From Clostridia bacterium (GTDB lineage Bacteria > Bacillota_A > Clostridia > UBA1212 > UBA1255), in contig JAFWZH010000268.1 of NCBI GenBank assembly GCA_017522515.1, positions 1-6,658 of the forward strand: a DNA stretch of 6,658 bases, read 5' to 3'. The notes beneath the pieces were generated by a model. It saw only the letters and a list, made by a program, of their open reading frames with translations. It searched no databases and was not told where the DNA came from. Position numbers and translations under genes: made by a program. Position 1 is the stretch's first letter. The number at the start of each line of letters is the position of its first letter. Positions 1-6,658 of the stretch are shown piece after piece.

Positions 1-170
1 AATCCTGAATCAGAGAGTTGTTCTTTTGATATACCTAATCCTTTAGATATACTTGCTACATCCTTTAAAGAATCTTTTTTCCACTCTTCCGTGAACTCAG
101 GAAATCGAAGTCTTGGAACATTTCCTTTATTGGGTACATTAGGATTTGTATTTTGTTTATCGTTTGCCAT
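1..170 (-). CDS. hsdS: Type I restriction-modification specificity subunit HsdS, N-terminal part (cut by window edge)
   Basis: The DNA-recognition subunit of the type I system; it chooses the bipartite target site for both methylation and restriction. Reading begins at the ATG at 170-168, and 56 codons are open to the window edge. The visible peptide starts MANDKQNTNP, then has the typical HsdS entry PRLRFPEFTEEW at residues 19-30, followed by a stretch (SLKDVASISKG, about 34-44) that opens the first target-recognition domain. This 'PxLRFPEF...W....L.D' pattern is a familiar HsdS N-terminus. It lies 41 bp downstream of hsdM on the same strand, as expected for a co-transcribed hsdM-hsdS pair. 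The leader has no clear Shine-Dalgarno sequence. The variable target domains lie outside the window, so specificity cannot be guessed, nor can it be seen whether alternative hsdS cassettes or an invertase follow. Confidence 0.88.
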   Translation of the reverse strand, partial: MANDKQNTNPNVPNKGNVPRLRFPEFTEEWKKDSLKDVASISKGLGISKEQLSDSG

Positions 171-211
171 AATCATTTGTTTACTTTTAGGTTAAACATT
201 AAGGATTGCAA

Positions 212-1768
212 TTAGTCAACCAATCCTAACTCTTTTAAGTAAACTTCTATTTGAGCATCAAGCTCGGCACGCTGTGCTTCAAGTGTTTTGATGTCTGCCA
301 TCACTGCTTTAATGTCGATTTCCTCTTCCTCTTCAAATGTATCAACATATCTAGGAATATTCAAGTTGTAGTCATTCTCCTTGATTTCATCAAGAGTAGC
401 ACAGTGGCTATATTTCTCAATTTCTTTACGTTCGCGATATGTGGTAACGATTTTTTCAATATGCTCGGGGCGGAGCTTGTTTTGAGTCTTTACCTTCTCG
501 AACTCTTTGCTTGCATCGATAAACAGGATATTATCATCAGCCTGACGGCATTTTTTCAGGACAAGAATACAAGTCGGGATTGATGTGCCATAGAAGATGT
601 TTGCAGGCAAACCGATGATTGCATCAATATAGTTTTTCTTTTCAATAAGGAATTGACGAATTGTACCTTCGGCAGAGCCACGGAACAGCACTCCGTGAGG
701 TGCAACACAAGCCATTGTACCACCTTCATTAAGGTGGTGAACCATGTGAAGAATAAACGCATAGTCGGCTTTGCTCTTTGGTGCAAGTTTGCCGGCTTTG
801 CTGAAACGGTCATCATTATTGAATTTTGCATCTGCACTCCACTCGGCAGAGAATGGTGGGTTAGCAATCACAGCATCGAATTGCGTGTCGCCAAATTCAT
901 CGTGTTCAAGAGTGTCATTGTTCTCAATGCGGAAGTTGTGGAATTTGATACCGTGAAGCAACATATTCATACGACAGAGGTTGAATGTTGTCGGGTTCTT
1001 TTCCTGTCCGTAAATGTCTTCAGCTTTGCCATTGCGTGCAGCACGAATGAGCAATGAGCCGCTGCCGCAAGTGGGGTCATATACATTACGTAAGCGTGTC
1101 TTGCCTGTAGTTACAATATCAGCAAGAATTTGGCTCACCTCCTGAGGTGTGTAGAACTCACCGGCTTTCTTTCCGGCACCGGCTGCAAATTGGCTAATCA
1201 TATATTCGTAAGCATCGCCAAGAATATCTATTTCCTGTGTTGCATCTACACCAAAATCTATCTCATCAAGAGCAAGAAGAACATTGCTGATTAGTGTATT
1301 CTTATCATCAGTTGTTCTACCTAGTTTGGGCGAGGCAAGGTCAATATCTGAGAAGAGACCGCCAAAGTCCTCTTCGCTGTCCTGTCCCAATGTACTATCC
1401 TCAATACGTTTTAATGAACGTTCGAGAACAGGGAGAATAGTCTCTTTCTTCTTGATTAAAGCAATGACCGAAGAGAACAGAAATTCAGGTTCAATGAAAT
1501 AACCGATAGATTCAAGACACTGTGTTTTCACAGCTTCCTGGAGTTCAAGATAATCTTCGTCATCGGTAACTTTCCAAAGTTCCTTGAATGTTATTTCATC
1601 ATCGACAAGAGCGGTGTCTGCAAAATGCTCTATTTTCTCCGACAGATATTTATAGAAGATGAAGCCAAGTGAAAAGTACATAAATTCACCAGCAGACATA
1701 TTTCCTCTCAATGTGTTTGCAACAGTCCAAAGTTGGTTACGCAGTTTTTGCTGAAGTTCTTCGCTCAT
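212..1768 (-). CDS. hsdM: Type I restriction-modification DNA methyltransferase subunit HsdM (N6-adenine)
   Basis: The modification subunit: it transfers a methyl group from S-adenosylmethionine to N6 of adenine in the site chosen by HsdS, and is also needed in the restriction complex. At 518 residues it has the usual length for EcoR124-type HsdM. The first 160 residues or so are the helical HsdM N-terminal domain (NQLWTVANTLRGNM at 11-24). The catalytic domain shows GEFYTPQEV (203-211), the SAM-binding motif I DPTCGSGSLL (231-240), the catalytic motif IV NPPF (303-306), ADYAFI (334-339) and IGLPANIFYGTSIP (385-398). NIPRYVD (470-476) and a charged, likely coiled-coil tail (about 485-515) end the protein; such tails contact HsdS. 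Every key residue is present, so it should be active. The start ATG is at 1768-1766. hsdR lies 136 bp upstream and hsdS 41 bp downstream, same strand. Whether hsdM has its own promoter is unclear: no convincing TAnnTTTG box was found in the gap. Confidence 0.96.
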   Translation of the reverse strand: MSEELQQKLRNQLWTVANTLRGNMSAGEFMYFSLGFIFYKYLSEKIEHFADTALVDDEITFKELWKVTDDEDYLELQEAVKTQCLESIGYFIEPEFLFSSVIALIKKKETILPVLERSLKRIEDSTLGQDSEEDFGGLFSDIDLASPKLGRTTDDKNTLISNVLLALDEIDFGVDATQEIDILGDAYEYMISQFAAGAGKKAGEFYTPQEVSQILADIVTTGKTRLRNVYDPTCGSGSLLIRAARNGKAEDIYGQEKNPTTFNLCRMNMLLHGIKFHNFRIENNDTLEHDEFGDTQFDAVIANPPFSAEWSADAKFNNDDRFSKAGKLAPKSKADYAFILHMVHHLNEGGTMACVAPHGVLFRGSAEGTIRQFLIEKKNYIDAIIGLPANIFYGTSIPTCILVLKKCRQADDNILFIDASKEFEKVKTQNKLRPEHIEKIVTTYRERKEIEKYSHCATLDEIKENDYNLNIPRYVDTFEEEEEIDIKAVMADIKTLEAQRAELDAQIEVYLKELGLVD

Positions 1769-1830
1769 ATTGTAAAGTTTTTATAATTCTTAATTTGCAA
1801 TGTTATTGGCTCGTTTTGTTTTTCGTGCAC

Positions 1831-1863
1831 CGCAGGGAATCACTTTCTGCGATGCTACCTGCG
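1831..1863. repeat. Inverted repeat in the hsdR-hsdM gap
   Basis: A 6-bp inverted repeat, CGCAGG at 1831-1836 and CCTGCG at 1858-1863, with a 21-base loop that holds a further TCTGCG. It sits in the middle of the 136-bp gap between hsdR and hsdM, in a GC-richer patch unlike the A/T-rich leaders of the operon. Function unknown; it could be RNA structure between the two coding regions or the remnant of a small intergenic element. Such short arms can arise by chance. Confidence 0.3.
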
Positions 1864-1885
1864 ACGTTCACTACAAAACTCGCCG

Positions 1886-1908
1886 ATAACAAAACTTTGT
1901 TTTGTTAT
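1886..1908. repeat. Perfect 10-bp inverted repeat spanning the hsdR stop codon
   Basis: ATAACAAAAC (1886-1895) and GTTTTGTTAT (1899-1908) are perfect reverse complements around a 3-base TTT loop. The hsdR stop codon (1907-1905 on the minus strand) lies inside one arm. In the hsdR-hsdM transcript this would form a hairpin right at the end of hsdR. There is no U-tract on either side, so it is not a canonical intrinsic terminator. It may protect the hsdR 3' end, modulate how much transcript continues into hsdM, or be a protein-binding palindrome. Confidence 0.55.
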
Positions 1909-4721
1909 TCCCAAGAGAATGTATTTATAATTGACAGTAATTGTTCGGTAACTCGTTTGATAGCCTTTCTTGTTTTTATTAAACCAAGATGCTGCTCTGC
2001 AATGGCTTCCTGAATTATTTCAGGCTTGTGCTTTTGCAGATAATCATATTCTGCCAAATAGCGTGCAAGCACATCTACGGGTATATTTTCGGTTTCCGAC
2101 AAATCTTTTATCGCTCTTTCTCGTTTTTCTTTCACATAGGTGTTGAGTCTCGCCTCCAAATCAATTGACCCGTCTGCCTTTGCACGTTCAAAGTTTTCTT
2201 TATCATCGTCCACATTCTGCTGAATGAAGCCGTCAATCAGCTTCGCCTTATTACGCATTTCGGCATCTTTAATCATTGTGTCAATGATGTTCCTGCGTTT
2301 TTCCTCGTAATCATCACTTGACGGATTAAGGTCGGCTATGAGTGCAAGGATATATGCTACATTGATTACATCGCTATGAAGCAATTCAAGACAGAAATCA
2401 ATGTCTTCAAGTGTCTTTGGCTCACCGTATGGGGCTTCGGGTTCCGAAGCTATTCCACTTGTCTGTTCCGGTGTTACGACACCCAATGCGATATCAAGGT
2501 ATTTGCTCTTGAAATCGTTGAACTCCTGCTCGGACATATAAAGGCTTGAATCATTAGGGTCGTATTCCTCGTAAATTTGAATTTCAGCCTGTTTTTTTAT
2601 AAGGTCGCGGAATGCTAAAACAAAATCACGCTTGTCATATTCGCTTTGAAGTGTATCTACGAATTGAGGTTTCGGATATTTTTTTAAGAATGCAATCGCG
2701 AGGTCATTAAGTTCTTTTTTTACTTTGTCGAAAGGCTCACGCAGAATATCTTCCGAAGGGCAGTTATTACTGAATAGTTTGATAGAGCTATCGACATTGT
2801 CCTTTAGATTGCGGAAACAGACGATTTTTCCAAAGCGTTTCTTTTCGTTAAGCACGCGATTGGTGCGGCTGAATGCTTGCAACAGCCCGTGGTATTCAAG
2901 TTTCTTATCAACATAAAGCGTATTCAACTTTTTAGAGTCAAAACCAGTCAAGAACATACCTACCACAAGACAAAGGTCAAGAGGTTTCATTTCAGGCTTT
3001 TTCTTCTTCATACGAAGATTTATATCATCGTAATAAGCACTGAAATTCTCTGTGGTAAATGCTGTGCCATACATTTTATTGTAATCATCCATTATGGCTT
3101 GCAATTCATCGGTTTGAACGCTTTCATTCTCAAACCCTCTGTTCATGCCCGTGTATGCATCGTCCTGATTCGTGTTTTGCCCATAGGTGAATACAGCACT
3201 AATCTTTATTTGAGGATTAAGACTCTTGAATATCTTATAGTATTTTATCAGCATAGGAACAGATTGTACTGCGAAAAGAGCATCATACTCTCCGTCGAAT
3301 GTCGATTTATTGAAGTTGTTGAGTATAAACTGGGCAATTTCAGTCATTCTGCCCTCATCATCATATTCAGCTGTTACATTGCCTGTATAATATTCCACCA
3401 AAAAACCAAGTACGTTTTCGTCGGCAATAGCATCTTTTATAAGATACTTATGCAAACAGTCGCCAAATATTTCTTTGGTAGTGTGCCCGTCGATTGAATT
3501 TTCAACGAATATCGGAGTGCCGGTGAAGCCGAATATTTGAGTATTAGTAAAAAACTTCATAATATTCTTATGGCTGTCGCCAAAATGACTTCGGTGGCAC
3601 TCGTCAAAAATCATAACAATCCGTTTGTCTCTAACAGCCAAAAGTTTATTGCTATAATAATCCTTTGATACAGCTGTGTTGAGCTTCTGTATTGTAGTGA
3701 TTATGATTTTACTATTTCCATTCAAGCGTTTGATAAGTTCCGATGTGTTGTCGGTATTATCTACAGCACCCGGTTCAAACGCTTCGTATTCCGATTGTGT
3801 TTGAGTATCAAGGTCGTGGCGGTCAACAACAAACATAACTTTGTCTATTCCGTCTATTTCAGACACCAATTGAGCAGTCTTGAATGATGTTAATGTTTTG
3901 CCCGCACCTGTTGTGTGCCAAATATATCCGTCCTTATTGGTGTTTTGTACACGGTCAAGTATCTTTTCAACGGCATAGAATTGATATGGTCGCAACACCA
4001 TAAGGCATTTATCGCCCTCGTGCATTACAATGTATTTGCTTATCAATTTGCCAAGAGTGCATTTGTCAAAAAACTCATTGGCAAACAGATTGAGGTCATT
4101 GTATGGTGTGTTTGCTGCATCTGTCCAGTTGAATGTGAATTTGTAACCTTGATTGGGATTGTTAGCAAAGTAACGTGTATTCACACCGTTAGAGACTACA
4201 AAAATTTGGATGTAGTCAAATAGTCCGTGGTATGATGTCTTGTGATAACGCTGAATTTGTTGGTATGCTTGTTTCAGTTCAACACCTCTCTTCTTTAGTT
4301 CTATTTGCACTAATGGTAATCCATTGATAAGAATTGTAACATCATACCGGCACTTCTTGCGTCCTTCAATGGTAATTTGATTTGCTACCTGAAATTCGTT
4401 TTTACACCATTGGCTACGATTAAGAAACTCCACCCAAATGCGTTCTCCATCCTCGGTGTCAAGAGGATAAAGGTCTCGAAGCTTCTTCGCTTTGTCAAAG
4501 CGAGTACCACCCTCAAGGTGAATGAGGATTTTCTCAAACTCCTTATCAGTAAACTGTGTACGGTTGTATTTTGAAAGTTCTTTTTGGTTATGCTTCTCCA
4601 GTTGTAATTTGAAGTTCTCAATCAAATTGCTTTCTTCTTTAATCACAACATATTCATAACTCATATTTTGTAATGTCCTTATCAGACCATTTTCCAAAGC
4701 TGCTTCACTCTGTGCTGTCAT
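1905..4721 (-). CDS. hsdR: Type I restriction-modification endonuclease / translocase subunit HsdR
   Basis: The motor and nuclease subunit: it uses ATP to pull DNA past the HsdS-bound site and cuts unmodified DNA at a distance. Numbered from the ATG at 4721 (938 aa), the N-terminal PD-(D/E)xK nuclease shows D127, E141-L-K143 and a QxxxY element (Q155-Y159). The superfamily 2 helicase core follows: Walker A TTGAGKT (270-276), Walker B DECH (373-376), motif III FTGTP (399-403), a motif V-like TGFDSKKLNTLYVDK (592-606) and motif VI QAFSRTNR (615-622). Roughly 655-938 is the helical C-terminal region that docks on the methyltransferase. Length and motifs fit the EcoR124-like HsdR family, somewhat shorter than EcoR124 itself. 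A TTG at 4730 would add three residues, but the ATG is preferred. It is first in the operon; a putative -7 box lies about 32 bp upstream. No frameshift or missing catalytic residue was seen. Confidence 0.96.
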   Translation of the reverse strand: MTAQSEAALENGLIRTLQNMSYEYVVIKEESNLIENFKLQLEKHNQKELSKYNRTQFTDKEFEKILIHLEGGTRFDKAKKLRDLYPLDTEDGERIWVEFLNRSQWCKNEFQVANQITIEGRKKCRYDVTILINGLPLVQIELKKRGVELKQAYQQIQRYHKTSYHGLFDYIQIFVVSNGVNTRYFANNPNQGYKFTFNWTDAANTPYNDLNLFANEFFDKCTLGKLISKYIVMHEGDKCLMVLRPYQFYAVEKILDRVQNTNKDGYIWHTTGAGKTLTSFKTAQLVSEIDGIDKVMFVVDRHDLDTQTQSEYEAFEPGAVDNTDNTSELIKRLNGNSKIIITTIQKLNTAVSKDYYSNKLLAVRDKRIVMIFDECHRSHFGDSHKNIMKFFTNTQIFGFTGTPIFVENSIDGHTTKEIFGDCLHKYLIKDAIADENVLGFLVEYYTGNVTAEYDDEGRMTEIAQFILNNFNKSTFDGEYDALFAVQSVPMLIKYYKIFKSLNPQIKISAVFTYGQNTNQDDAYTGMNRGFENESVQTDELQAIMDDYNKMYGTAFTTENFSAYYDDINLRMKKKKPEMKPLDLCLVVGMFLTGFDSKKLNTLYVDKKLEYHGLLQAFSRTNRVLNEKKRFGKIVCFRNLKDNVDSSIKLFSNNCPSEDILREPFDKVKKELNDLAIAFLKKYPKPQFVDTLQSEYDKRDFVLAFRDLIKKQAEIQIYEEYDPNDSSLYMSEQEFNDFKSKYLDIALGVVTPEQTSGIASEPEAPYGEPKTLEDIDFCLELLHSDVINVAYILALIADLNPSSDDYEEKRRNIIDTMIKDAEMRNKAKLIDGFIQQNVDDDKENFERAKADGSIDLEARLNTYVKEKRERAIKDLSETENIPVDVLARYLAEYDYLQKHKPEIIQEAIAEQHLGLIKTRKAIKRVTEQLLSIINTFSWE

Positions 4722-4752
4722 ATCAACCAATGTGTAAAAATCGTGCTAAATG

Positions 4753-4760
4753 CAAAAATA
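4753..4760 (-). promoter_or_regulatory. Putative Bacteroidetes -7 promoter box for the hsdRMS operon
   Basis: On the minus strand this reads TATTTTTG, a match to the Bacteroidetes -7 consensus TAnnTTTG. Transcription would begin near 4746, leaving a leader of about 25 bases before the hsdR ATG at 4721. A TTTG that could serve as the -33 box lies at 4786-4789, but the spacer of about 25 bp is longer than the usual 19-21, so the upstream half is weak. The surroundings are strongly A/T-rich. Confidence 0.4.
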
Positions 4761-4805
4761 AATAAAATTTATTTTAGAACCGCGCCAAAGGTCAGATTTG
4801 TTAAA

Positions 4806-4813
4806 AACATGTT
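4806..4813. promoter_or_regulatory. 8-bp palindrome AACATGTT next to the AbiGi-family promoter box
   Basis: A perfect 8-bp palindrome that overlaps the first base of the putative plus-strand -7 box, where a repressor could block transcription of the AbiGi-family gene. Such a short palindrome is expected by chance at appreciable frequency in A/T-rich DNA, so this is a weak operator candidate only. Confidence 0.2.
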
Positions 4814-4820
4814 ACCTTTG
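4813..4820 (+). promoter_or_regulatory. Putative Bacteroidetes -7 promoter box for the AbiGi-family gene
   Basis: TACCTTTG matches the Bacteroidetes -7 consensus TAnnTTTG. Transcription would start near 4827, giving a leader of about 30 bases before the ATG at 4859. No TTTG stands at the ideal -33 spacing; the nearest, 4797-4800, is only 12 bp upstream. The box faces away from the putative hsdR promoter, so the 137-bp region between the two start codons appears to drive both transcripts divergently. Confidence 0.45.
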
Positions 4821-4858
4821 CTGTAATTAAAATAATTGAATACAAAAAGTAATTGATT

Positions 4859-5665
4859 ATGGGACTAAGTTCGAATACATTGTGGCATCAAACAAAAAAG
4901 GGTGCTTTAGAAAGAATAATAAAAGAGAAACGATTTTCATTTTCTTACAGTAAAGAAACAATGCCAAATAATGAAGTTATGGCATTCCCTATGATTAGTC
5001 TTTGTGATTTACCCTTTTCAGAGTTTGCTGATTATATTACTAAATATGGAGGATATTCTATAGGAATGTCAAAGGAATGGGGTTTAAGAAATAGATTTAA
5101 TCCTGTGTGGTATTGTAATTATGATTCTTGTGCAATAGAAAATATTAAGCATTCTGGAATATTCTATGAGGCATCTTCTTATATAAAACCAATAGAGGGA
5201 GAATTGATTGTCCGAGGTCGAAAATTTAACAACTACCGTTATATGGATGAAAGAGAGGTGAGATTAACACCTCAAAAAAATGAACTTCAAGAAAGAGGTA
5301 TAAAACCATATTTGACAGTTGAAGAGTATAAAACATATAAAGAACAAAATAATGATTCCTCAAAAATACCTCTACACATTCCATTTGAATGGAATGATAT
5401 TAAGTACATTATTGTACAAAACAGCGATAATAAAGATGAATTCAGAGAATTATTAAAAAAGTTTGGATGCAATAACAACAATATTCATATTTACGACAGC
5501 AAGCAGATTAAAGAAGATATTATTGGAATTGGTCACAACAAAGAGGCAAGGTTTTATTTTCCTGAAAATCATAAGGAATTGATGAATATAGCGATGCTAT
5601 TATCACAGCAAAAAGGGGCGGACCTAAAATCTATGATAGAAAAATTGAAAAACAACAAAGAATAA
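4859..5665 (+). CDS. AbiGi-family abortive-infection (phage defence) protein
   Basis: A 268-aa soluble protein with no signal peptide or membrane segment, recognised as a member of the AbiGi family (Pfam 'putative abortive phage resistance protein AbiGi'). Diagnostic stretches in order: LWHQT (8-12), FPMISLCDLPFSEF (43-56), YGGYSIGMSKEWG (63-75), NPVWY (81-85), YMDEREVRL (128-136) and IKYIIV (181-186). A charged C-terminal extension (about 220-268) ends in a lysine-rich tail. In Lactococcus, AbiGi is encoded with the larger AbiGii and the pair causes abortive infection; databases label AbiGi as antitoxin by analogy. Here no AbiGii-like gene is adjacent: hsdR diverges upstream, and downstream is only a broken minus-strand gene 2 bp away. 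The ATG at 4859 is preferred to a TTG at 4853 two codons earlier. The gene is visibly more A/T-rich than the DNA to its right, fitting horizontal acquisition. The family call is fairly firm; the biochemical activity is unknown. Confidence 0.78.
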   Translation: MGLSSNTLWHQTKKGALERIIKEKRFSFSYSKETMPNNEVMAFPMISLCDLPFSEFADYITKYGGYSIGMSKEWGLRNRFNPVWYCNYDSCAIENIKHSGIFYEASSYIKPIEGELIVRGRKFNNYRYMDEREVRLTPQKNELQERGIKPYLTVEEYKTYKEQNNDSSKIPLHIPFEWNDIKYIIVQNSDNKDEFRELLKKFGCNNNNIHIYDSKQIKEDIIGIGHNKEARFYFPENHKELMNIAMLLSQQKGADLKSMIEKLKNNKE

Positions 5666-5667
5666 AC

Positions 5668-5811
5668 CTACATCGCCCCACTTGCGGTAACAGGGAACAT
5701 TTCTCTGTAAGGGAACTTCTCTGCCCCGATATACAGCGTATCAAACGCATCGGTGCCGTCTGTGCGATGTTCGAGCAGGTTTTCTTCTGTCTCGTCCAAC
5801 TTCTCACCGCC
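5668..5811 (-). pseudogene. 3' remnant of an unrecognised minus-strand gene
   Basis: The frame ending at the TAG at 5670-5668 encodes about 47 residues that look like the C-terminus of a genuine protein: an acidic, helix-like stretch (EKLDETEENLLEH) followed by DAFDTLYIGAEKFPYREMF, ending SGAM. Composition is protein-like, unlike the other frames here. Going upstream, the frame stays open into the 77-bp repeat at 5811, but there the peptide becomes low-complexity and its only Met would come from the repeat, so I take the repeat boundary as the break point. Its stop lies 2 bp from the stop of the convergent AbiGi-family gene, suggesting that this tail marks one edge of an insertion or rearrangement. 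I do not recognise the parent family. It could instead be a small intact 72-codon gene starting at 5886, which I think less likely. Confidence 0.45.
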
Positions 5812-5887
5812 TTTGACAACACTCGCTGACCGTGACCCGCACGGCACGACTACACCGTGCTGCGTGCGACCTATCACTGCTCGCATT
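5811..5887. repeat. 77-bp direct repeat, copy 1
   Basis: First copy of a 77-bp sequence beginning CTTTGACAAC and ending CTCGCATT. It matches copy 2 at 76 of 77 positions (G at 5862 here, A at 5947 there). An 8-base linker (GTCTAAAA, 5888-5895) gives a period of 85 bp. The unit is GC-rich and holds competing inverted repeats: CCGTG (5830-5834) with CACGG (5840-5844), and GCACGG (5839-5844) with CCGTGC (5855-5860). GACAA near its left end faces TTGTC (5886-5890) just past its right end, so the unit could fold as a closed, branched hairpin. No credible coding potential. Confidence 0.9.
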
Positions 5888-5895
5888 GTCTAAAA

Positions 5896-5972
5896 CTTTG
5901 ACAACACTCGCTGACCGTGACCCGCACGGCACGACTACACCGTGCTACGTGCGACCTATCACTGCTCGCATT
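5896..5972. repeat. 77-bp direct repeat, copy 2
   Basis: Second copy of the repeat, in the same orientation and 85 bp further on, with one substitution (A5947). It keeps all the internal inverted repeats of copy 1. Immediately after it the sequence diverges: the GTCTAAAA linker is replaced by AATTTCATTG, so this is the end of the tandem. Near-identity suggests recent duplication or selection on the folded structure. Confidence 0.9.
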
Positions 5973-5991
5973 AATTTCATTGAACCAGCTT

Positions 5992-6004
5992 TCACTCGCA
6001 GTGA
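5992..6004. repeat. Short hairpin TCACT-CGC-AGTGA
   Basis: A perfect 5-bp inverted repeat with a 3-base loop, 19 bp after the end of repeat copy 2. Its right arm overlaps the outer arm of the larger hairpin at 6000-6031, so the two structures are mutually exclusive on one strand. No T-run follows on either strand. Confidence 0.45.
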
Positions 6005-6031
6005 GATTACAAGTTAAACTTGTATCTCGCT
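6000..6031. repeat. Strong bulged hairpin
   Basis: AGTGAGAT (6000-6007), a single bulged T (6008) and ACAAGT (6009-6014) pair with ACTTGT (6018-6023) and ATCTCGCT (6024-6031) around a TAA loop. That gives 14 base pairs, one of them a G-T wobble that pairs on only one strand's transcript. It is the longest stem in the right part of the window. There is no U-tract, so it does not look like an intrinsic terminator. It could be a recombinase or regulator site, a single-strand DNA hairpin, or RNA structure. Confidence 0.6.
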
Positions 6032-6183
6032 CGCTTAATCGCAGCATTGTCGAATATCCACAAGGGGAATTTCGCTTATCGAGATTTTTTATGTGCATAC
6101 AAGGGCAACACGGTAAGGATATAACTCATCAAGGATTATCAGGAAAAATTTACCCGGCGGGCTACAAGAAATTGTTTGGTAAA

Positions 6184-6206
6184 GCGACAAAAAAAAGAGC
6201 GACAAA
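6184..6206. repeat. Direct repeat GCGACAAA with 15-bp period around an A-run
   Basis: GCGACAAA occurs at 6184-6191 and again at 6199-6206, separated by A-rich sequence. On the minus strand this reads as two TTTGTCGC words separated by a T-run. Phased short direct repeats of this kind are typical of regulator or integrase arm sites, but two copies are too few for more than a suggestion. Confidence 0.4.
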
Positions 6207-6449
6207 GAATTTTCAATTATTCCTTATCACTCTGCCTGTCCTTGTGAATATCCGCGTGTTGCTACCTCTGCCTTCGGCGAACCTCGACTGCGCTCGTTGT
6301 GTGTGCAAGCAAGCTTCCACTCACTCGCTGGCACGAGCTTTCGCACCGAAAAAAGCCGCAACCGAAAAGCATTGCAGTGCTCTTAATCATCTAAAAGCAA
6401 GCAGTGGCACATTGCACATCGGCTGTTAGAAGCCTGAAGAGGGAGGCAT

Positions 6450-6479
6450 AAAAAGCCCCAACGCAAATTGCGTCGGGGC
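6450..6479 (-). terminator. Intrinsic terminator for minus-strand transcription
   Basis: GCCCC-A-ACGCAA (6455-6466) pairs with TTGCGT-C-GGGGC (6468-6479), a GC-rich stem of 11 pairs with one A-C mismatch and a very tight tip. On the minus strand it is followed directly by TTTTT (6454-6450), the classic rho-independent layout. On the plus strand no immediate T-run follows, so it acts mainly leftward. It would stop transcripts entering from the right of the window and insulate the repeat region and the AbiGi-family gene from antisense transcription. No convincing minus-strand gene lies just to its right. Confidence 0.8.
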
Positions 6480-6488
6480 AGATAATAG

Positions 6489-6644
6489 ATGTTTTATTTT
6501 GCACAAATTTGCTGCTTGATGCTTGGACTCAGTGCCGCACGTATGAGTGAAATCATAACGGGTAAGGGTGAGCCGTCACTAAAAACGGGAAGGGAAATCA
6601 GTCGCAAGCTGAACATAGACCCTGCCATCGTGCTTGGAGTGTAA
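6489..6644 (+). pseudogene. Shortened, probably frameshifted XRE-type helix-turn-helix gene
   Basis: The frame 6489-6644 gives 51 residues. From residue 12 it reads LGLSAARMSEIITGK, then EPSLKTGREISRKL and NIDPAIVLGV to the stop, the turn and recognition-helix pattern of XRE/HTH_3 regulators (GxS...SEI..GK..PSL.....IS..L.IDP). The N-terminal helix and most of helix 2 are missing: in-frame TAA TAG at 6483-6488 sit directly before the ATG. In the neighbouring frame, HKFAA is encoded just before the point where MLGLS begins in this frame; joined, they make a standard helix 2. This suggests a frameshift of two extra bases near 6513-6516, or loss of the 5' end at the junction with the terminator. 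Intact relatives are small DNA-binding regulators or antitoxins. It could also be expressed as a tiny protein from the ATG at 6489. Confidence 0.5.
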
Positions 6645-6658
6645 AGCCACGCTTCAGC

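Follow-up and report, generated by a model that had tools for sequence, protein, structure and literature searches.

What might a lone member of a family annotated as antitoxins be doing beside a type I restriction locus? This question is raised by a 6,658-nucleotide stretch from a Clostridia bacterium (contig JAFWZH010000268.1, positions 1 to 6,658, forward strand; hereafter the window), in which a solitary AbiGi-family gene (4859-5665, + strand) is divergent from hsdR (4730-1905, − strand). The answer we favor, with a probability of roughly 0.6, is that the gene encodes a DarT-like ADP-ribosyltransferase (ART) that would act as a stand-alone phage-defense effector and not as an antitoxin, as judged from sequence comparison and a structural model. 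A sequence-only reading of the same DNA had found a lone antitoxin puzzling; the gene does stand alone, but the antitoxin label is probably wrong, given the DarT-like predicted fold and the retained HxT and ExE motifs, and the oddity would then arise because the family is mislabeled.

The reading frame is intact from the ATG at 4859 to the TAA at 5665 and translates into 268 amino acids. The protein scored 75.4 bits against the Pfam AbiGi family PF10899 (gathering cut-off 22.4 bits, E 7.7e-21) and matched the PADLOC AbiGi profile (E 4.3e-29), so that the family assignment withstood the profile search. By contrast, it scored 27.7 bits against the NCBIfam AbiGI equivalog NF042957, for which the curated cut-off is 300, and it is therefore a family member rather than an orthologue of lactococcal AbiGI. 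The two share the family PF10899 and a similar predicted fold, whereas AbiGi of the lactococcal type carries NxM in place of HxT and has AbiGii (PF16873), the gene directly next in order, as its partner. The window protein showed 28% identity over 72% to an AbiGii-paired member from Niallia; five closer homologues (P0001-P0005) were 73-91% identical. A hidden Markov model built from four AbiGii sequences found no AbiGii in the window (E ≤ 10, 141 six-frame segments), either directly downstream, as in the two-gene AbiG system, or elsewhere, which agrees with the earlier description of a full-length relative standing alone.

An AlphaFold2 model of the protein had a predicted local distance difference test score (pLDDT) of 88.5. 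Its best Foldseek match in the Protein Data Bank (PDB) was DarT (E 2.9e-4), and the leading structural matches were ARTs or relatives of Tpt1, which places the protein in the ART superfamily by prediction and at modest template-modeling scores. Tpt1/KptA RNA 2'-phosphotransferase uses an R-H-R-R residue set, whereas AbiGi has an invariant ExE. A sequence search of the PDB with the window protein returned no ART, and DarT (PF14487) was not among its Pfam families at E ≤ 1. When AbiGi and DarT profiles were aligned over their whole length by hhalign, the HxT region alone was aligned; the two halves were therefore compared separately against shuffles, a choice made after the whole-length result, and short matches in each half outscored 100 of 100 column shuffles. 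The C-terminal match pairs a strand and helix of AbiGi (EWNDIKYIIVQNSDNKDEFRELLKK, residues about 177-201; 5387-5461, + strand) with DarT PIDALLGIICYSEKTKTDIDKLLIER over 26 columns, and it lies after an insert of roughly 35 residues, judged by eye, that follows the ExE strand in AbiGi and distinguishes it from DarT. With DarT of the DarTG system (PMC11281641), AbiGi appears to share the fold (predicted for AbiGi), the β1 HxT-helix element, a (Q/E)xE motif, and the following strand; AbiGi differs in having ExE, not QxE. No DarG was recognized in the window, where hsdR lies on one side and the open reading frame (ORF) 5886-5668(−) was scanned on the other.

The two ART motifs are H10-Q11-T12 (4886-4894, + strand), a putative NAD-binding element inside the stretch aligned to DarT, and E131-R132-E133 (5249-5257, + strand), the putative catalytic (Q/E)xE. 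Both the β1 histidine and the (Q/E)xE glutamate expected of an ART are thus present and conserved, with a putative placement in an NAD site. The published motifs are Q158-x-E160 in DarT2 and Q150-x-E152 in DarT1, according to a figure legend of PMC11281641, and we infer from motif order, rather than from superposition, that ExE is their counterpart. We counted the motifs in 119 AbiGi ORFs, including seven outside 230-350 amino acids that a separate conservation table omits. ExE was present in all 117 that cover the site; HxT was kept in 104 of the 114 without AbiGii, and its histidine in 110 of these 114. All five ORFs with AbiGii had lost the histidine. In that table, of ORFs of 230-350 amino acids, residues H, Y, K, and ExE were near-invariant and look catalytic in character. 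The solitary branch with HxT and ExE spans Bacteroidota, Pseudomonadota, Bacillota, and archaeal metagenome-assembled genomes. AbiGii pairing arose once on the AbiGi tree, so the loss of HxT and the pairing count as one correlated event; the paired branch kept the predicted fold. Because the signature is kept in solitary copies and the histidine is lost in AbiGii-paired ones, the lone gene probably acts as an effector by itself, and the earlier option of a self-sufficient effector is plausible. A genome from the Clostridium phylum also carries an AbiGi with NxM and no detected AbiGii (L156:5872-6735), possibly an orphan of the paired branch.

AbiGii adjoins AbiGi in 5 of 117 non-duplicate loci, all from Bacillota; four of these were hand-picked, and the fifth (L152) turned up unpicked. 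AbiGi of the Niallia type matched 83 plasmid records, of which the neighborhoods of six were opened, plus three from an earlier search. With AbiGii found at 5 of 117 loci, constant pairing in homologues, which would have told against the earlier reading, was not observed. The three AbiGii proteins scanned belonged to PF16873 and had no nucleotidyltransferase match, at odds with the nucleotidyltransferase previously supposed. The antitoxin role of AbiGi is itself a label: abiGi and abiGii were each cloned singly in Escherichia coli and neither was toxic, and many abiE homologues carry an abiG annotation (both from PMC3985639). The non-toxicity of lone lactococcal abiGi is compatible with an ART because that branch lacks HxT. 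CmdT, an ART-like phage-defense toxin, is likewise reported to be silent and non-toxic alone (PMC9519451), so the abiGi result does not discriminate. CmdTAC differs in being a three-gene toxin-antitoxin-chaperone system.

If the window gene encodes such an effector, NAD+ would be bound by the β1 HxT element, and E133 of ExE would transfer ADP-ribose to nucleic acid or protein, or NAD+ would be consumed; phage, host, or both would be stopped once infection is sensed. We infer both the catalysis and this abortive-infection outcome. The enzyme would be silent during growth and triggered by infection, possibly through intrinsic inactivity until a phage signal arrives or through the state of a neighboring defense system. 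PrrC beside EcoprrI is a precedent for the latter form of control. A wider reading, which we put forward tentatively and at somewhat below even odds, is that PF10899 is a DarT-like ART family whose solitary branch, equipped for catalysis, serves as a mobile effector plugged into many unrelated defense systems (type III, type IIG, and type I-like restriction-modification, Hachiman, Shango, BREX, DRT, and Avs4), with lactococcal AbiGi a derived pseudo-enzyme that lost HxT in the branch that gained AbiGii.

The favored reading has to be weighed against other roles. AbiGi might truly be an antitoxin or regulator, with an AbiGii-like toxin elsewhere in the genome or an unrecognized neighbor as its partner: the Pfam and NCBI names say antitoxin, AbiGii immediately follows lactococcal-type AbiGi, and our AbiGii search was confined to the window. 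The rarity of AbiGii beside AbiGi, its restriction to Bacillota, and residues that look catalytic make this unlikely. Nor did tabulating the neighbors reveal a separate conserved partner besides AbiGii. The next largest neighbor cluster within four genes comprised five loci (N6_N4 methylases in the three members scanned, L075, L162, and L163), and the commonest Pfam families among the 143 nearest genes occurred three times. A non-catalytic role for AbiGi on an ART fold, either as a pseudo-enzyme or in sensing NAD, ADP-ribose, or nucleic acid and signaling to other defense genes, is also improbable. The paired branch, which has the predicted fold without HxT, implies that some family members may be non-catalytic, and the non-toxicity of abiGi alone (PMC3985639) would suit a sensor; however, a sensor need not keep both HxT and ExE, as the solitary branch does across its whole taxonomic range.

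Finally, AbiGi and the adjacent type I system could form a composite in which AbiGi stands guard and is set off once HsdR is blocked by phage anti-restriction, an idea modeled on PrrC and EcoprrI to which we give little credence. It draws on the divergent adjacency in the window, the close coupling of AbiGi to type III genes in Bacteroidaceae (L162, L163, and L167), a type IIG gene in L082, a methylase/HsdS-like pair directly upstream of AbiGi in L142, and, in L074, a match resembling the S subunit some 1.3 kb upstream. However, the window gene lies outside the type I operon, most coupled neighbors elsewhere belong to other systems or are unknown, and with the window HsdR as query the other 121 loci yielded a single match, to an SNF2 protein in L086 (E 9e-4), in a single-sequence search that a divergent HsdR could escape. 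The suggested specific partnership with HsdR/HsdM is not supported, adjacency to hsdR was not seen again, and an HsdR composite as a general rule is unsupported. Against the DarT-like effector reading itself stand two points that slightly lowered our confidence in it and in the wider reading: the C-terminal hhalign match to DarT does not reach ExE, and type I-like parts occur near other AbiGi genes. The latter comprise those in L142 and L074, an HsdM match on the far side of AbiGii in L085, and one Specificity_I match among the 143 nearest genes, the gene behind which was not pinned down in 34 genomes; the match in L074 is a different gene.

We next consider the company that AbiGi keeps elsewhere. 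An operon-like neighbor, defined as a gene on the same strand that encodes 150 amino acids or more and lies within 45 bp, was present in 36 of the 112 non-duplicate loci without AbiGii (31 plus five set aside: L005, L075, L151, L163, and L169). In 15 of these 36, as a raw tally and not an enrichment, the neighbor is a defense component or resembles one; the other 21 had no defense match, an unscanned gene, or, in L145, a second AbiGi. PADLOC was applied to 30 of the 37 coupled neighbor genes, leaving out L058, L068, L144, two of L162, and two of L167; the type III Mod was assigned by Pfam in L162 and by clustering in L167. The neighbors include HamB (L038, whose AbiGi is itself truncated to 163 amino acids), a type IV/Mrr-like protein (L055), weakly matched viperin-like radical SAM proteins (L057 and L071), an HNH protein (L074), an N6_N4 methylase (L075), a type IIG protein (L082), an HsdS-like protein after an N6-methylase (L142), BrxL (L151), a mad6/PD-T4-6-like kinase (L160), reverse transcriptase UG24 (L166), and Shango SngABC (L169); L162, L163, and L167, with the type III run described below, complete the 15. 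PADLOC and Pfam tallies, which list families and not proteins (354 PADLOC families from the 143 nearest genes and 161 from 106 distal ones, E ≤ 1e-5), carry no claim of enrichment. The idea of AbiGi as an accessory gene of defense loci gains support from the 15 coupled loci.

Several arrangements are worth recording. In L163:1434-12478, and by clustering in L162 and L167, an HKD/Snf2 helicase, DUF4391, AbiGi, and type III Mod and Res lie in a run, with DUF4391, AbiGi, and Mod overlapping or within 10 bp of one another, possibly as a composite type III system. AbiGi directly precedes SngA-SngB-SngC in L169:3-6206 and shares one base with SngA. A viral contig (L145:5045-6834) carries a tandem AbiGi-family pair 29 bp apart with HxT and ExE in both, and another (L142:1106-6735) has in a row a DUF2971 protein, an N6-methylase with HSDR_N_2, the HsdS-like subunit, and AbiGi; the DUF2971 protein looks ART-like and is a candidate.

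In the window, hsdR (Pfam HSDR_N, SWI2_SNF2, and EcoR124_C, an EcoR124-type C terminus; PADLOC REase_I, E 2.1e-260) and hsdM (212-1768, − strand; Pfam N6_Mtase, E 9.9e-116; PADLOC) are long open frames with full-length profile matches. The start of an HsdS-like subunit, cut by the window edge (3-170, − strand), was named by eye without a search from its 56-residue translation, so that the type I neighbor is identified by profiles for R and M and by eye for S. The divergence of hsdR from AbiGi was confirmed by their coordinates. The intergenic region (4731-4858, GC content 0.25) does contain the promoter-like box noted earlier, a −7-like TACCTTTG at 4813-4820, but this is at chance level (8 matches to TANNTTTG observed vs 7.4 expected), and the arrangement TTTG-N17-23-TANNTTTG had no match. 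The AbiGi gene, with a GC content of 0.30, is AT-rich relative to hsdR and hsdM (0.39-0.42) and to the downstream DNA (0.49), which fits a separate origin. Downstream, ORF 5886-5668(−), the one ORF scanned there, matched nothing in Pfam, NCBIfam, or PADLOC at E ≤ 1, and DNA 5666-6658 matched none of 72,556 plasmid records; the decay inferred earlier from a broken gene is therefore unproven. The GC-richer DNA downstream of AbiGi also holds a 77-nucleotide direct repeat (5811-5887 and 5896-5972; 99% identical, 8 bp between copies).

Among 5426 complete genomes of E. coli, 356 carry a relative of the type in L003; seven of the eight listed records of this gene name it an antitoxin. In the three E. 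coli chromosomes viewed, it is flanked by yjcB and by a convergent avs4, with an integrase close by, and in one of them an insertion sequence remnant intervenes; it also lies beside avs4 on two plasmids. Another E. coli relative (L002), on a phage-like plasmid, is not near avs4. The cassette is seen in L171:8001-14124, with AbiGi convergent with avs4 and beside the integrase next to yjcB. In the literature searched, which did not reach most subscription journals or any bioRxiv preprints, we found neither AbiGi called an ART nor the family reassignment, the two-branch pattern, or the plug-in habit in print; ART toxins in defense are already known. If the reading is correct, a gene annotated as an antitoxin in these E. 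coli genomes would become an enzyme, phage defense would gain one more ART family, and the little-understood lactococcal AbiG system would gain a testable mechanism. The relative beside avs4 would make the reading testable in a laboratory strain of E. coli.
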